A DNA stretch of 64,000 nt. It comes from Candidatus Tectomicrobia bacterium (GTDB lineage: Bacteria; UBA8248). Below, in pieces: positions 3,001-37,165 of the stretch (position 1 is the stretch's first letter; each line of letters starts with the position of its first letter). A program made the translations under genes and the position numbers. A model generated the notes under the pieces. That model was not told the DNA's origin, ran no database searches, and saw only the letters and a program-made list of their open reading frames with translations. The DNA is taken from the NCBI GenBank assembly GCA_016192135.1, contig JACPUR010000004.1, positions 62,001-126,000 of the forward strand, given 5' to 3'.

Positions 3001-3972
3001 ATGCGCAATGAACGCACGCGGGCGGCTTTGGGTCTGGTCCTGATCTTCGTGCTTGCGGGCGCCCTGCCCTCCGCCCCGGAAGCCGCCCCCAAGACCATGA
3101 TCCTCGGAACGGCCCCGGCCGGGACATCGTCCTTCCCCTACATGGTGGGCGTCGCGACCATCATCAACAAGGCCCACCCCGGCGAGTTCGCCCTCTCCCC
3201 GCAGGAGACGGGCGGATCGGTGACCAACATCCGGCTTCTGGACGCGGGGAAAATCCATCTGACGGGATTCTCCGGCATGGTGGCGGCGGACGCCCTCGCG
3301 GGCAAGCCCCCATTCAAGCAGAAGTACAACGTCCGAGCCCTTTTCAGCATGTACAAGCAGCCCTATTTCTGGTTCGGGCGCGGGGCTTCCGGCATCACCT
3401 CGTGGGACCGGATCCAGGGCAAGAAGATAGCCGTCGGAACCCCCGGAGGCGGCACCCGCCTGGTCGGGGACTTGGTGGTCGAGGCGAAGGGACTGAAGGG
3501 CAAGGCGCGGATCCTCTATCTCCAGCCCAGCGCCATGATCGACAGCCTGCGGGACGGGAACCTCGACGCGGGATTCGGCCAGATCGCGGGCAATTCCCCG
3601 GTGCCTTGGGTCCAGGAGGTCATGGCGTCCCTGAACGTGAATTTCTTCGGCTTGGATGAACCCACCATCGCCGCGCTCATCAAAGCGAAGCCCGGCCTGA
3701 TCCGTTTGGAGGTGCCGGCCAATCTCCTCAAGGGAAGCCCGGGATTCGCGACGGTCGGCGACCCCCTCATCGCGGGCGTCTCCGCCGGGATGGACGAGCG
3801 GACGGCCTTCTTGCTCACCCAGACGGTTCAGGAAAATCTCGCGGCTCTGGCCAGCTACTCGCCGGCGGCCAAGGGCGCCAAGCCCGAGGATGCGCTCAAG
3901 GGCATTCCCTCCAGCGTGCCCTTGCACCCCGGCGCGACCCGCTATTACAAGGAAAAGGGCCTCATGAAGTAA
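3001..3972 (+). CDS. TAXI family TRAP transporter solute-binding protein, copy 1
   Basis: A 323-residue periplasmic binding protein with a cleavable signal peptide (hydrophobic stretch to about residue 28, APEAAPK). It has TAXI-family features: LGTAPAGTSSFPYMVGVATIIN at the mature N-terminus, and a GKKIAVGTPGGGTR segment. It delivers substrate to the fused permease at 5184. A second TAXI protein at 4131 is a close tandem duplicate, with near-identical stretches such as QPSAMIDSLRDGN. AGGAG upstream supports the start. Confidence 0.93.
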   Translation: MRNERTRAALGLVLIFVLAGALPSAPEAAPKTMILGTAPAGTSSFPYMVGVATIINKAHPGEFALSPQETGGSVTNIRLLDAGKIHLTGFSGMVAADALAGKPPFKQKYNVRALFSMYKQPYFWFGRGASGITSWDRIQGKKIAVGTPGGGTRLVGDLVVEAKGLKGKARILYLQPSAMIDSLRDGNLDAGFGQIAGNSPVPWVQEVMASLNVNFFGLDEPTIAALIKAKPGLIRLEVPANLLKGSPGFATVGDPLIAGVSAGMDERTAFLLTQTVQENLAALASYSPAAKGAKPEDALKGIPSSVPLHPGATRYYKEKGLMK

Positions 3973-4130: not shown

Positions 4131-5099
4131 ATGATGACCGAGCATGTCCGGACGGCTTTGGGTCTGATTCTGACTTGCCTGTTGGTGGGCGCCCTGCCCT
4201 CCGCGCCGGACGCCGCCCCCAAGAGCATGGTGCTCGGGACGGCCCCGGTGGGGACGGCGTCCTTCCCGTACATGGTGGGCGTCGCCACCATCATCAACAA
4301 GGCTCATCCGAACGACTTCGCCCTCGCGCCCCAGGAGACGGGCGGCACGGTGGCCAACATCCGGCTCGTGGACGCGGGGAGAATCCACCTGACGGGCTTC
4401 TCCGGCATGGTGGTGGCGGACGCCCTCGAGGGCAAGGCCCCCTTCAAGGAGAAGGCCAAAGTCCAGGCCCTCTTCAGCATGTACGGGCAGCATTTCCTCT
4501 GGTTCGCCCGGAAGGCCTCGGGCGTCACCTCGTGGGACCAGATCGCCGGCAAGAAGATGGCGGTCGGCACCCCCGCGGGCTCCACCCGCGTGGGCGGCGA
4601 CCTCGTGGTCGCCGCGAAGGGCCTGAAGGGAAAGGCGCAGCTCCTCTACCTCCAGCCCAGCGCCATGATCGACAGCCTGCGGGACGGGAACATCGACGCG
4701 GGCTTCGGCCTGGCCACGGGCAGCTCCCTCGCCCCCTGGGTCCAGGAGGTCATGTCCACCCTGGACGTGAACTTCTTCGGCCTCGACGAGCCCACCATCA
4801 CCAAGCTCGTCCAGCGGCCCGGCCTGGACCGCTACGTGATTCCGGCCGGCCTCCTCAAGGGGAGCCCGGGCTTCCCCACCATGAGCGAGTACCTGATCGC
4901 GGGCGTCTCCGCCAAGATGGACGAAAAGACAGCCTACATGTTCACCAAGACGATCCAGGAGAATCTCGCGGAGTTAGGCAAGTATTCGACGGCGGCCAAG
5001 GGCGTCAAGCCCGAGGACGCCTTGAAGGGCCTTCCCCCAAAGCTGGCCTTCCATCCCGGGGCGATCCGCTACTACAAGGAAAAGGGCCTCATGAAGTAA
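4131..5099 (+). CDS. TAXI family TRAP transporter solute-binding protein, copy 2
   Basis: A 322-residue close paralogue of the preceding TAXI protein with its own signal peptide (to about residue 29) and conserved core. It has diverged near the ligand cleft and C-terminus (for example a one-residue shorter VQRPGLDRY segment). Two binding proteins for one permease suggest a widened substrate range. The codons begin ATGATG, so the start could also be 4134. The 158-bp spacer from copy 1 holds no gene. Confidence 0.93.
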   Translation: MMTEHVRTALGLILTCLLVGALPSAPDAAPKSMVLGTAPVGTASFPYMVGVATIINKAHPNDFALAPQETGGTVANIRLVDAGRIHLTGFSGMVVADALEGKAPFKEKAKVQALFSMYGQHFLWFARKASGVTSWDQIAGKKMAVGTPAGSTRVGGDLVVAAKGLKGKAQLLYLQPSAMIDSLRDGNIDAGFGLATGSSLAPWVQEVMSTLDVNFFGLDEPTITKLVQRPGLDRYVIPAGLLKGSPGFPTMSEYLIAGVSAKMDEKTAYMFTKTIQENLAELGKYSTAAKGVKPEDALKGLPPKLAFHPGAIRYYKEKGLMK

Positions 5100-7132: not shown

Positions 7133-8395
7133 ATGCCTGGGCACCCGGTCAACAGCAAGCTCGAAGCCATCACCGGCTCTTGGCGGATCTCGCAGCACTG
7201 CTTCTCGGACGAGATCCGCTCCAAGATGACCATCTCGCCCAACCTCAAGCTCTGCGACATCACGCTGCGCGAGGGGCGCCAGCTCCCCGGCGTCTCCCTG
7301 CGCCGCGACGAGGTGCTGCTCATCGCCGACAAGCTGGTCGAGGCGGGCGTCGGCATGCTCCAGATGCACCACGACGACCCCCAGGAGATGGAGGAGGTCA
7401 AGAAGCGCCACCCCAGGGTGACCATCGAGGCCCTGGTCCATCCCACCGCCGTCCTGAACCCCGAGATGGCCAAGGTGGAGGTGGACCTGAACGTGGACCA
7501 CGGCGCGGACTACACCACCCTGTGCTTCTCCTTCTCCGAGCACCAGATGTGCCTCTTCGAGTCCATGGCGGGCGCCCGCATCACCATCGAGGAGGCCATC
7601 GAGCGCGCCATGGGCTCGGTCGCCTACGCCCGGAAGAGATCGGGGAAGGACAAGAAGGTGGGCTGCCTCATCCAGGACTGTACCCGCATCCCCATCCAGC
7701 GCCTCGCCGAGGTCTGCAAGAAGCTGGTGGACGCGGGCGCCGACATGATCAAGCTCGACGACATCAACGGCATGGCCATCACCCCCGTCTACACCCACGT
7801 GGTGCGCGAGATGAAGCGCCTGCTGCCGGGCACCGAGATCGGCCTGCACACCCACAACGACATCGGGCTGGCCACGGCGGCCATCTACGCCGGCGTGGAA
7901 GGAGGCGCCGACCTCATCGACGCCTGCGTGAACGGCCTGGGCGAGCGCGCCCACATCGCGCCCCTGGCCGAGATCGCCTCGGTCATCCAGATCTACTACG
8001 GCGTCGACCTGGGGATTAAGCTCGACAAGATGACGGAGCTCTCCCGCCTCGTCTCCGACGTCATGAAGTGGCCCATGACCGACACCCTGCCCTTCGTCGG
8101 GAAGACGGCCTTCTCCCACCTCGTCGAGGTCCACTACTGTGTGCCCGAGGGCGAGGAGGGCTTCTGGTCCTACCTCTGCATGAAGCCCCACATGTTCGGG
8201 AACGCTCAGCACAACCTGCTGGGCCACTACTCCGGCCCCTGGGCCGTGCGCACCAAGGCGAAGGAGCTGGGCCTGAGGATCACCCCGGGCAAGGAGCCGG
8301 CGGTGGTGCAGAGGGTCCGCTCGGAGATCCGCTGGCGCAAGCGCCAGCTCACCAACGAGGAGTTTTGCAGGATCGTCAGCGAGGCGGGCCGCTAG
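7133..8395 (+). CDS. DRE-TIM metallolyase family protein, second copy
   Basis: A 420-residue paralogue of the protein at 1723 with the same order of motifs: CDITLREGRQ, LVHPTAVLNPE, the metal-binding HTHNDIGLA, ACVNGLGERA, and a C-terminal TAFSHLVEVHY region. Compared with the first copy it has an N-terminal extension (about residues 1-30) and an extra KRSGKDKK-type insertion. The pair may act on successive or alternative substrates of the same route, or form a heteromer; this is inference. It follows the TRAP permease by 44 bases and precedes the selenoprotein gene. Confidence 0.88.
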   Translation: MPGHPVNSKLEAITGSWRISQHCFSDEIRSKMTISPNLKLCDITLREGRQLPGVSLRRDEVLLIADKLVEAGVGMLQMHHDDPQEMEEVKKRHPRVTIEALVHPTAVLNPEMAKVEVDLNVDHGADYTTLCFSFSEHQMCLFESMAGARITIEEAIERAMGSVAYARKRSGKDKKVGCLIQDCTRIPIQRLAEVCKKLVDAGADMIKLDDINGMAITPVYTHVVREMKRLLPGTEIGLHTHNDIGLATAAIYAGVEGGADLIDACVNGLGERAHIAPLAEIASVIQIYYGVDLGIKLDKMTELSRLVSDVMKWPMTDTLPFVGKTAFSHLVEVHYCVPEGEEGFWSYLCMKPHMFGNAQHNLLGHYSGPWAVRTKAKELGLRITPGKEPAVVQRVRSEIRWRKRQLTNEEFCRIVSEAGR

Positions 8396-8419: not shown

Positions 8420-9031
8420 ATGCCCCGGCTGCCCATGATCAAGGACGAGGAAGCCTCCGAGGAGGTCCGCCGGGCGTTCGACGGCGCCCGGGAGCTCCTC
8501 GGGTTCGTGTCGAACTCCACGCGCACCGTCGCCCACAGCCCCTGGGCGGTGAAGTGGCTCATCCCCTTCACCACCGCCATCCAGCGCGAGAGCGGCGGCA
8601 AGCTGGACGCCAAGACGAAGGAGCTGGCCATCATCCGCACCTCCGCCGTCAACACCTGCGACTTCTGACTCGGGCACAATCGCCGGCTTGGTCAAGTCAG
8701 CGGGCTGACGGAGGAGGAGGTGAAGGCGGCGGAGGGGGATTTCGAGAGCTCACCCGTCCTCTCGCCGAGGCAGAAGTGCGTGGTGCGCTGGGCCGAGCTC
8801 GTCACCCGGAACGAGGCCAAGCGCGACCGCAAGTGCTGGGAGGAGCTCAAGACCTATTTCGACAGCCAGGAGATCATCGAGCTGACCATGGTCGTCTGCC
8901 ACTTCAACCTGATGAACCGGCTGAACGACACGCTCCAGCTCGACCTCGAGACGCCGCCGCCGGGCATGCGCTCGACCAAGGTCTCGCCCGAGAAGCTCAG
9001 GAAGTACGCGCGGGACGTCCTGGCGCGTTGA
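8420..9031 (+). CDS. AhpD-like / carboxymuconolactone decarboxylase-family selenoprotein (UGA at codon 83)
   Basis: A single 203-residue reading frame interrupted only by TGA at 8666-8668. The residues before it read NTCDF and those after read LGHNRRLGQ, giving C-x-x-U-x-x-H where the AhpD/CMD family has its redox C-x-x-C and histidine. The frame continues without further stops through typical CMD sequence (MVVCHFNLMNRLND) to a TGA at 9029. A GC-rich stem-loop with a GGUC loop lies about 21 bases after the UGA, as in bacterial SECIS elements. AhpD-like selenoproteins are an established family. It sits between the lyase and an SDR in the operon, and probably acts as a thiol/selenol peroxidase-like or decarboxylase enzyme. 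The alternative, a nonsense mutation, is unlikely given the identical arrangement at 26046. Confidence 0.87.
8685..8698 (+). promoter_or_regulatory. bacterial SECIS-like stem-loop
   Basis: GGCTT-GGTC-AAGTC forms a 5-bp stem (one G-U) with a tetraloop starting GG. The loop starts on the 22nd base after the UGA, within the distance known for bacterial SECIS elements. The LGQ codons here are CTT GGT CAA, all unusual in this GC-rich operon, which points to constraint on the RNA. Confidence 0.7.
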
Positions 9032-9068: not shown

Positions 9069-9845
9069 ATGAAGCTGCAAGGAAAAGTCGCCTTCATCAC
9101 GGGTGCCTCGGGCGGAATCGGGGGGGCCGTCGCCCGGCTCTACGCCCAGGAAGGCGCGGACGTCGCGCTGGCCGCGCGCACGGTCGAGAAGATGGAGAAG
9201 GTGGCCGCCGACGTGCGGAAGCTGGGCCGCAAGGCCGTGGTCTGCCGCTGCGACGTACTGAAGGACGACGACATCATCCAGGCCATCCGCGCCACGGTGA
9301 AGGAGCTGGGGCCGATCGGCATCCTGGTGAACAACGCCGGCATCGTCAGCTTCGAGCCCGTCCATAAGCTCCCGGACGAGGTGTGGAACCGCACCATGCA
9401 GATCAACGCCAAGGCACCCTTCACCGCCATCCGCGAGGTACTGCCCTCGATGATGGAGCGCAAGTGGGGCCGCATCATCAACGTGGCCTCCGTCTCGGGG
9501 AAGATCGGCCTCCCCTTCCGCAGCGCCTACGCGGCCTCGAAGCACGCCGTGATCGGCCTCACGAAGTCGCTCTCGGCCGAGGTGGCGCCGCTCGGCATCA
9601 CCGCCAACTGCATCTGCCCCACCTTCGTGGCGACCGAGATGTTCACCGAGAGCATCCAGAAGTGGGCCGACGAGACGGGCAAGACCTACGCGCAGCAGGA
9701 GGAGGAGCTGCGCCAGCGCGTCCCCATGAAGCGCTTCATCGACCCGGGAGAGGTCGCCCCGCTGGCCCTCCTCCTCGCCTCGGACGGGGCGGCGGGCATC
9801 ACCGGCCAGTCCATCAACGTGGACGGCGGCTTCGTCCAGTCCTGA
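9069..9845 (+). CDS. SDR family oxidoreductase, second copy
   Basis: A 258-residue classical SDR: TGASGGIG at residues 11-18, NNAG at 88-91, S143, and Y154-x3-K158. It ends with VDGGFVQS, nearly the same as the SDR at 868, and the two are full-length paralogues. A Shine-Dalgarno AGGAG lies upstream. It is in the operon 37 bases after the selenoprotein gene. Substrate unknown. Confidence 0.93.
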   Translation: MKLQGKVAFITGASGGIGGAVARLYAQEGADVALAARTVEKMEKVAADVRKLGRKAVVCRCDVLKDDDIIQAIRATVKELGPIGILVNNAGIVSFEPVHKLPDEVWNRTMQINAKAPFTAIREVLPSMMERKWGRIINVASVSGKIGLPFRSAYAASKHAVIGLTKSLSAEVAPLGITANCICPTFVATEMFTESIQKWADETGKTYAQQEEELRQRVPMKRFIDPGEVAPLALLLASDGAAGITGQSINVDGGFVQS

Positions 9846-9863: not shown

Positions 9864-10613
9864 ATGCGTCTCAAGGGCCGGGTGGCCATGGTCACGGGCG
9901 CGGCGAGGGGCATCGGGGAGGCCGTCGTCAGGCTCTTCGCGAAGGAAGGCGCCTCCGTCATCGCCTGCGATCAAAGGAAGGATCTGCTGGAGGCGCTCTG
10001 CGCCGAGGTGGCAAAGGAAGGCCACGCGGCCCGGGCCGAGATCCTGGACGTCTCGAAGGGCGCCGAGGTCCGCCGGGTGGTGGGGGAGAGCCTCGGGGCC
10101 TTCGGGCGCATCGACATCCTCGTCAACAACGCGGGCATCTCGCCCAAGAAGCCCTACCTCGACTACACGGAGGAAGACTGGGACGCCGTCCTCTCCGTGA
10201 ACCTGAAGGGCGAGTACCTCTGCGCCCGCGCCGTCTCCGAGCCGATGATGGCCCAGCGGTACGGCCGCATCGTGAACCTCTCCTCCTCGGCGTGGAGGCT
10301 GGGCTCGGTCGCGGCGGGCTTCCCCTACACCGCGGCCAAGGCCGGGGTCATCGGCCTGACCCGGGCCCTCGCCCGCAACCTGGGGCCCCACGGCATCACC
10401 GTGAACGCCATCGCCCCGGGCCCCACCGCCACGCCGCTCACGGACGAGTGGCTCCCCGCGCGGGAGAAGGAGGTCGTGGCCCAGATCCCGCTGGGCCGGG
10501 TCGGGCGGCCCATCGACATCGCCCACGCGGCCCTCTTCCTCGCCTCGGACGAGGCCTCCTTCGTCACCGGCATCTGCCTCGACGTGAACGGCGGCATCGT
10601 GATGGGCGGCTGA
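9864..10613 (+). CDS. SDR family oxidoreductase, third copy
   Basis: A 249-residue SDR with TGAARGIG (11-18), NNAG (88-91) and the active site Y155-x3-K159 (YTAAK). Sequence features (SPKKPYLDYTEEDWDAVLSVNLKG) are closer to 3-oxoacyl-ACP reductase or glucose dehydrogenase-like SDRs than to its two operon paralogues. It begins 18 bases after the previous stop and is probably co-translated. Confidence 0.92.
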   Translation: MRLKGRVAMVTGAARGIGEAVVRLFAKEGASVIACDQRKDLLEALCAEVAKEGHAARAEILDVSKGAEVRRVVGESLGAFGRIDILVNNAGISPKKPYLDYTEEDWDAVLSVNLKGEYLCARAVSEPMMAQRYGRIVNLSSSAWRLGSVAAGFPYTAAKAGVIGLTRALARNLGPHGITVNAIAPGPTATPLTDEWLPAREKEVVAQIPLGRVGRPIDIAHAALFLASDEASFVTGICLDVNGGIVMGG

Positions 10614-26045: not shown

Positions 26046-26714
26046 TCAGGGCGCCAAGGCGTCGGGCCGCGGGAACTCCTGCGGCCAGGCGGCGACGGCA
26101 TCCTCCAGGTAGCGCTTGACGGTGCCCGGGTCGAGCCGGACGGAGCGCTTGATCTTGTTCACCTCGCCCTCGCTCTCGAGGGGGATCCGCAGCGAGTCCA
26201 TGAAGCGGTTGAACATGTTGAAGAAGCCCGCCATGAGGGTGAGCTCGACGAGCTCGGCCTCGGAGAAATGCTCCCGCGCCGCCTCGTAGACGTCGTCCCG
26301 CTCCCGCGCCGTGTTCCGGGTGACGTGCTCGGCCCAGAGCACGGCCGCCTTCTCGCGGGGGGTGAGCAGGGGCGAATCCATGTAGCCGTCCGAGCCGATG
26401 GCCTGGACCTGATCCTCGGTGATGCCCGCCGCTTGACCAAGGGCGGTGTTGTGGGCCAGTCAGTAGGCGCAGCCGTTCACCTTGCTGGTCTTGATGACGG
26501 CCATCTCCTTGATGCGCGACGAGAGCAGGCTGCCCGCCCCCTCCCGCTGGAGCACCGCGTTGAACGGGAGCATCACCCGCGCCACGTGCGGCGTCCGGGC
26601 CAGCGCCCGGTAGGAGTGCGGCACCCGCCCGAGCATCTTCGTCACGGCCTCGTAGAGGCGGGCCACCTCGGGGCCGGCCGCCTCAGGCTGAACCAGGTTC
26701 ACCCGTTCCTTCAT
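26046..26714 (-). CDS. AhpD-like selenoprotein (UGA at codon 85), second gene
   Basis: The frame of 222 residues contains one internal TGA (26462-26460 on the minus strand) at C-A-Y-U-L-A-H, exactly the redox site of the AhpD/CMD family. Downstream coding is uninterrupted and typical (LVELTLMAGFFNMFNRFMD). An 8-bp stem with one bulge and a GGUC loop follows the UGA by 21 bases. It overlaps the rdgB stop by ATGA (26711-26714), so it is the third gene of the rph-rdgB operon. It is homologous throughout to the selenoprotein at 8420 and shares its SECIS core. Confidence 0.88.
26426..26446 (-). promoter_or_regulatory. bacterial SECIS-like stem-loop
   Basis: On the minus strand CCGCCCTT-GGTC-AAG-C-GGCGG forms eight base pairs with a single bulged C and a GGUC tetraloop. 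The loop starts on the 22nd base after the UGA, the same distance as at 8690. Confidence 0.78.
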
Positions 26715-37005: not shown

Positions 37006-37061
37006 CGACCTTCGCGGGCGCCCGCTCCCCCCTCGGGGAGGCGGCGCCCGTTGCCCGCCCA

Positions 37062-37165
37062 GCGCTCCTTTCCATGACCGGGAGGCCCCGCCGTTTCCAG
37101 CGGAACCCTGTCGGCGGAACGCCCGGTACCCTCCGGGAGGGCTTAGGGCGGGCCGCTCGGAGCGC
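37062..37165 (-). promoter_or_regulatory. molybdenum-cofactor (Moco) riboswitch candidate
   Basis: Minus-strand leader of moeA. Outer stem GCGCTCC (37165-37159) pairs with GGAGCGC (37068-37062). The 3' part reads GCCTCCCG followed by GGAAAGG, matching the conserved 3' core of the Moco motif as I recall it from the E. coli moaA leader. An internal hairpin CCGCCG/CGGCGG precedes it. The gene context (moeA, moaA) and a downstream terminator fit. The call rests on a remembered consensus and not on a covariance search. Confidence 0.7.

Follow-up and report, generated by a model that had tools for sequence, protein, structure and literature searches.

AhpD-like and CMD selenoproteins with a CxxU motif were reported in 2005 and 2008 (PMC1088965, PMC2398784), and a 2026 review lists AhpD-like CxxU selenoproteins (PMC13188914), among them the peroxidase-related enzyme TIGR01926, which has CxxU members. 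In bacteria, the SECIS is described as a stem of 4-16 bp with a loop of 3-9 nt and a G in the first two loop positions, lying 16-37 nt after the UGA and with an MFE of at most -7.5 (PMC13188914). We found that in a 64,000-nucleotide stretch of a Candidatus Tectomicrobia genome, hereafter the window, the gene at positions 8420-9031 of the forward strand is an added member of this already known AhpD-like CxxU kind, and its UGA at 8666-8668 is, judging from the sequence, very probably decoded as selenocysteine (Sec). The AhpD-like and CMD selenoproteins of the Sargasso Sea and GOS data likewise combine the AhpD/CMD fold, CxxU and a SECIS-like stem-loop directly after the UGA (PMC1088965, PMC2398784). 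The likeness is one of description, and those proteins come from marine metagenomes, whereas the named relatives of the present gene are MAGs of an uncultured lineage.

The reading frame extends from the ATG at 8420 to the TGA at 9029-9031 with a single interruption, the TGA at 8666-8668, and its product is 203 amino acids long with Sec at residue 83. The initial annotation had read the locus as an AhpD-like selenoprotein, with the frame open on both sides of this TGA and the TGA at the second redox residue, and both observations hold: the exact redox motif is C-D-F-U-L-G-H-N, in which Cys80 (TGC, 8657-8659) is the putative resolving partner of Sec83, the second CxxU residue. Gene calling under table 11 splits the gene, as had been predicted, into pieces at 8420-8668 (82 aa) and 8720-9031 (103 aa). 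Because 10.6% of inter-stop intervals across the six frames of this GC-rich DNA reach at least 121 codons, the open frame alone is weak proof, and the weight falls on other evidence. The in-frame coding score 3' of the UGA is 0.33 per codon, against -0.76 in shuffled sequences (shuffle maximum -0.41), and it is about -1.2 in the +1 and +2 frames. Among four orthologues of 75-100% identity, the TGA is present in 4/4, each from a separately assembled genome, and dN/dS values are similar on its two sides, about 0.14-0.48 before it and 0.14-0.40 after it; purifying selection extends past the UGA. We also observe that the orthologue in genome G014 (L034) is broken by an N run and a frame change and retains the gene order.

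Next, we examined the fold and family assignment. The joined product matches PF02627 (E = 1.2e-10; 41.7 bits against a gathering threshold of 23), and AhpD-like chains from the PDB align across the stop with Cys in the place of the TGA residue. An AlphaFold2 model built from four sequences is of moderate confidence (pLDDT 73.5), and its best matches are 2gmy (Foldseek E = 4.5e-6), 7xw1/2ijc (PA0269), Bmp8 and 6k40. The gene shares with 2gmy, PA0269 and 6k40 both the fold and the position of the redox pair, whereas the AhpD-like proteins of known structure have Cys where it has Sec; the alignment with homologues that the initial annotation had proposed as a check therefore places Cys at this residue in the PDB proteins and TGA in the members of the lineage. 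The debrominase Bmp8 (6ohi, 6ohj) matches across most of the chain, but it is a Cys enzyme with 15-17% identity in the structural match, and no halogen-related genes are seen next to the present gene. Among the NCBIfam models tested, the generic AhpD-domain model TIGR00778 was the only one whose cut-off was passed. TIGR01926 aligned over the whole core with 72.4 bits, below its cut-off of 81.8, and NF053654, the model of YciW-related (seleno)proteins, covered residues 3-174 with 52.4 bits, below its cut-off of 310. Thus, the gene shares the fold of NF053654, whose model name includes selenoproteins, but is not a member; with respect to TIGR01926, the Cys copies of these genomes read CxxCxxMH and the Sec copies CxxUxxHN. 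Glu68 and the CxxU are conserved in the Sec copies, and the Glu/His relay of AhpD is not found in its usual form, with Asn at the usual His position in 90/98 Sec copies. In PA0269, as is usual in Cys relatives, the His lies four residues beyond the second redox residue (+4), whereas here the His stands one residue earlier, at +3, and Asn takes +4. Selenolates require less assistance in deprotonation, a possible reason why the relay was free to change. This shift of the relay-His position to Asn appears not to have been described in the papers searched.

Downstream of the UGA we observe a bacterial SECIS-like hairpin at 8681-8702, with a stem formed by 8681-8689 and 8694-8702 and a GGUC loop at 8690-8693. 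It begins 12 nt after the UGA, the loop 21 nt after it, and the stem consists of 5 bp, one C.A mismatch and then more pairs; the folding energy of the segment 8672-8705 is -8.6 kcal/mol. The hairpin lies within the published constraints on loop, spacing, G position and energy (PMC13188914), so that the stem-loop which the initial annotation had placed at the proper distance passes the bacterial SECIS check proposed with it and, furthermore, covaries across relatives. The GGUC loop is present in 70/90 copies, and the loop-closing pair is U-A in 55, C-G in 32 and U-G in 2 of the 90. In this pair, the wobble position of a codon for Leu or Val, usually Leu, faces the middle base of a Gln (CAA) or Arg (CGA) codon, so that a switch alters an amino acid to preserve the pairing. 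The inner three pairs form in 80/90 copies, compared with a mean of 14.9 and a maximum of 26 in 1000 synonymous recodings; the copies are mutually related, and these hairpin counts are not independent events. Across 32 diverse sequences, 88.8% of the cells of the named stem are paired, against at most 57.5% when the stem is slid. The covariation score of 0.51 compares with 0.26 after shuffling and was reached by 0/500 shuffles. Cys copies in the same genomes are without such a hairpin. RNAalifold on the 32 aligned post-UGA segments gave no consensus stem, an Rfam search gave no match at the locus, and when a longer piece of the window is folded, an alternative structure competes with the hairpin (-16.2 vs -14.4 kcal/mol). 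With a mean z of -0.16, the total post-UGA folding energy is no lower than that of synonymous recodings, a probable consequence of the many GC-rich alternatives with equally good folds. Overall, Sec insertion by SelB at this hairpin is strongly supported.

When searching the genome assembly (3.92 Mb, 41 contigs, 96.8% complete) for the selenocysteine machinery, a check that the initial annotation had also named, we recovered three of the four genes. A SelA match (E = 7.9e-140) is followed about 950 bp downstream, on the same contig, by selB, and tRNA-Sec (selC) scores 74.8 bits, with ARAGORN in agreement (anticodon tca). The fourth gene, selD, was not found in the 41 contigs; the best match, a candidate at C13:54341 with 83.5 bits against a cut-off of 125 bits, adjoins a ThiE-like gene and is more likely ThiL. 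Across the phylum, selD is found in 14/18 genomes, both congeners among them, and full-length SelA matches are likewise found in 14/18. In one congener, selD lies in a block of MsrA-like, selD, aspartyl-protease-like and transglutaminase-like genes and a ligase (names from the reading of the ORFs). DNA comparison gave no counterpart of this block in the assembly, and the ligase has no protein-level counterpart there either. Since selD is missing along with its whole congener block, its absence points to an assembly gap, with a true deletion as the alternative. We additionally observe that the selD genes of the phylum (L057-L070) carry one in-frame TGA of their own in 14/14 genomes having selD.

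We then examined how widespread such genes are. At E <= 1e-20, the 18 genomes of the phylum yield 118 matching places. A TGA is present in every one of them except three, namely two copies with SxxC and a fragment of a gene that an assembly gap interrupts; no CxxC copy occurs in the phylum at this threshold. The largest number of copies is found in G015, with 12 TGA copies at E <= 1e-20. In a set of 98 non-identical TGA copies from the 18 genomes, the in-frame TGA falls at the CxxU residue in 98/98, with no other residue position affected, and CxxUxxHN is read in 90/98. The CxxCxxMH motif is read in 12 Cys copies, which form one separate group in a quick tree. Outside the phylum, only one of 128 genomes, G102, has a relative at this level, and that relative too has a TGA in the CxxU place; with this single outside relative, we saw no Cys orthologues near enough for direct comparison. 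At 88 and 86% identity, MAGs of Candidatus Tectomicrobia are the closest records that carry a name. A scan of viral contigs yielded no relative, and a plasmid search for Cys homologues yielded distant matches only, with at most 32% identity among the matches listed; the residue at the Sec position varies among the plasmid homologues (Cys, Thr, Glu), and the Thermus Cys form has CEYC at the aligned motif.

The window contains a second Sec-CMD paralogue on the reverse strand (span of the match 26091-26705), which is 38% identical, reads CAYULAHN and has the same GGUC hairpin. The initial annotation had noted neither this copy nor the larger set of Sec paralogues, nor that the kind had been reported as early as 2005. 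In G015, tandem arrays (L117, 16601-17977; L094, 2377-4429) place Sec-CMD genes next to TGA-less SxxC (SAYC) CMD copies, which are possibly partner subunits. At L172 (G000:C32:19032-20046), a divergent CMD reads CNYUGN, its UGA being followed by a strong hairpin; this CMD adjoins a CMD copy without both redox residues (DTYFAN), and the two may form a mixed complex.

Upon examining the gene neighbourhood, all on the forward strand, we find two TAXI-type TRAP solute-binding proteins (3001-3972 and 4131-5099), a fused TRAP transporter permease (TIGR02123, 5184-7088) and, directly upstream of the Sec-CMD gene, an HMGL-like aldolase/synthase (7133-8395). Downstream are two conserved SDR dehydrogenases (9069-9845 and 9864-10613) and a cyclase-family protein (PF04199, 10642-11418), which ends the conserved cluster. 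The order TRAP permease, HMGL-like, Sec-CMD, two SDRs and cyclase is shared by the window, by two named records of close relatives in genus g1 (L055 and L056) and by G010 of genus g3, and the HMGL, CMD and SDR genes are also in order in G014 of genus g6; conservation of the cluster thus extends beyond a single genus. Upstream, the window also encodes another HMGL-like protein and another SDR. The paralogue at 26091-26705 is accompanied by an OsmC-like gene and by a block of RdgB-like, RNase PH and AcrB-like genes; this neighbourhood recurs in other genomes, with the RNase PH and AcrB-like genes each recurring in 12 loci. As the paralogues occupy differing neighbourhoods, the family is not tied to a single pathway. 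On the Thermus brockianus plasmid pTB1 (L176, 371-1722), a Cys-type CMD overlaps a cyclase-family gene and is followed by an ABC transporter, a grouping of CMD, cyclase and transporter that echoes the window cluster. Elsewhere in the window, a molybdenum/tungsten cofactor riboswitch lies on the reverse strand at 37061-37164 (64.6 bits). An intergenic repeat some 70 bp long is dispersed over more than 25 places in G000 and is also present at L161 (249-320).

Three readings in which the UGA does not encode Sec can be weighed against these observations. Only a single base separates TGA from TGC or TGT, and MAG assemblies contain errors, as the gap-broken orthologue in G014 illustrates, so that a sequencing error or a recent nonsense mutation, leaving a pseudogene or a misread Cys gene, could be considered; we regard this as extremely improbable for the gene, since the TGA is shared by the four separately assembled genomes and stands at the equivalent residue in 98 copies, the coding signal and purifying selection persist past it, and the covariation of the Leu/Val codon with the Gln/Arg codon would be purposeless in a Cys gene. 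For the family, this reading is refuted. It is very unlikely that the UGA terminates translation and that a separate 103-aa protein starts at GTG 8720, even though the purine-rich GGAGGAGGAG directly precedes this codon: conserved residues (LGHNRRLGQ..G) encoded by the 17 codons that separate the UGA from GTG 8720 would be left untranslated, a single fold would be divided within its active-site motif, and the hairpin would be left without a role. The frame alone does not determine which residue is inserted, and the UGA might be read as another amino acid through near-cognate readthrough or reassignment. We consider this exceedingly improbable, as the gene itself ends on the TGA at 9029-9031 and UGA is therefore still a stop, the genome has Sec machinery, the replaced residue is the redox Cys of AhpD-like homologues, and no different position is affected in the 98 copies. 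The sequence evidence establishes the recoding signals, the fold and the conservation of Sec and of the cluster, and the gene with its apparent internal stop is almost certainly intact.

In the mechanism that we propose, SelB and tRNA-Sec would decode the UGA at 8666-8668 as selenocysteine, directed by the GGUC hairpin, and translation would terminate normally at the TGA at 9029-9031. Cys80 and Sec83 would make up a CxxU redox centre where a core helix begins. There, the Sec selenolate would attack an electrophilic substrate, be it a peroxide or a different reducible metabolite from the pathway of the operon; Cys80 would resolve the product as a selenenylsulfide, which a cellular thiol system would re-reduce. 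We infer the CxxU redox chemistry and peroxidase activity from the fold only, and hold the functional part of this explanation, namely chemistry, substrate and physiological role, at roughly even confidence. The neighbouring TRAP importer, HMGL-like aldolase, two SDRs and cyclase hint at a function in breaking down an imported acid and not in general stress defence. A different function, compatible with a selenoprotein, would be that of a CMD enzyme which acts on a pathway intermediate by redox or lyase-type chemistry instead of reducing peroxide, for example a reductive dehalogenation as in Bmp8 or the action of a decarboxylase subunit. The catabolic cluster conserved across genera, the presence of Bmp8 among the top structural matches, the Thermus plasmid Cys relative that is also beside a cyclase-family gene and a transporter, and the Asn (HN) at the His position of the Cys form (MH) are consistent with such a step; the identity to Bmp8 is just 15-17%, no halogen-related gene was found among the annotated neighbours, and CxxU by itself is typical of thiol-peroxidase chemistry. 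We thus view this function, and the two examples given for it, as possible, while leaning against it.

Regarding the lineage as a whole, the large AhpD-like Sec paralogue families in the little-studied Tectomicrobia appear to be an expansion not described in the papers searched: the open-access literature searched contained no mention of selenoproteins in Tectomicrobia, and no lineage-scale expansion of AhpD-like selenoproteins was found in it. We tentatively propose, with less than even confidence, that the lineage may have radiated AhpD-like selenoproteins into many pathway-specific enzymes, each in its own neighbourhood, with Sec and the change from relay His to Asn carrying out substrate-specific reductive catabolic steps and not generic peroxide defence. 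Since gene callers split such genes, annotations of this uncultured, phylum-level lineage probably overlook a large family of redox enzymes or record its members as fragments. Were the copies to prove pathway-specific, Sec would be used here for metabolic diversification and not for a few conserved housekeeping roles, and the copies would offer a natural series for asking why this lineage keeps Sec where others have Cys.
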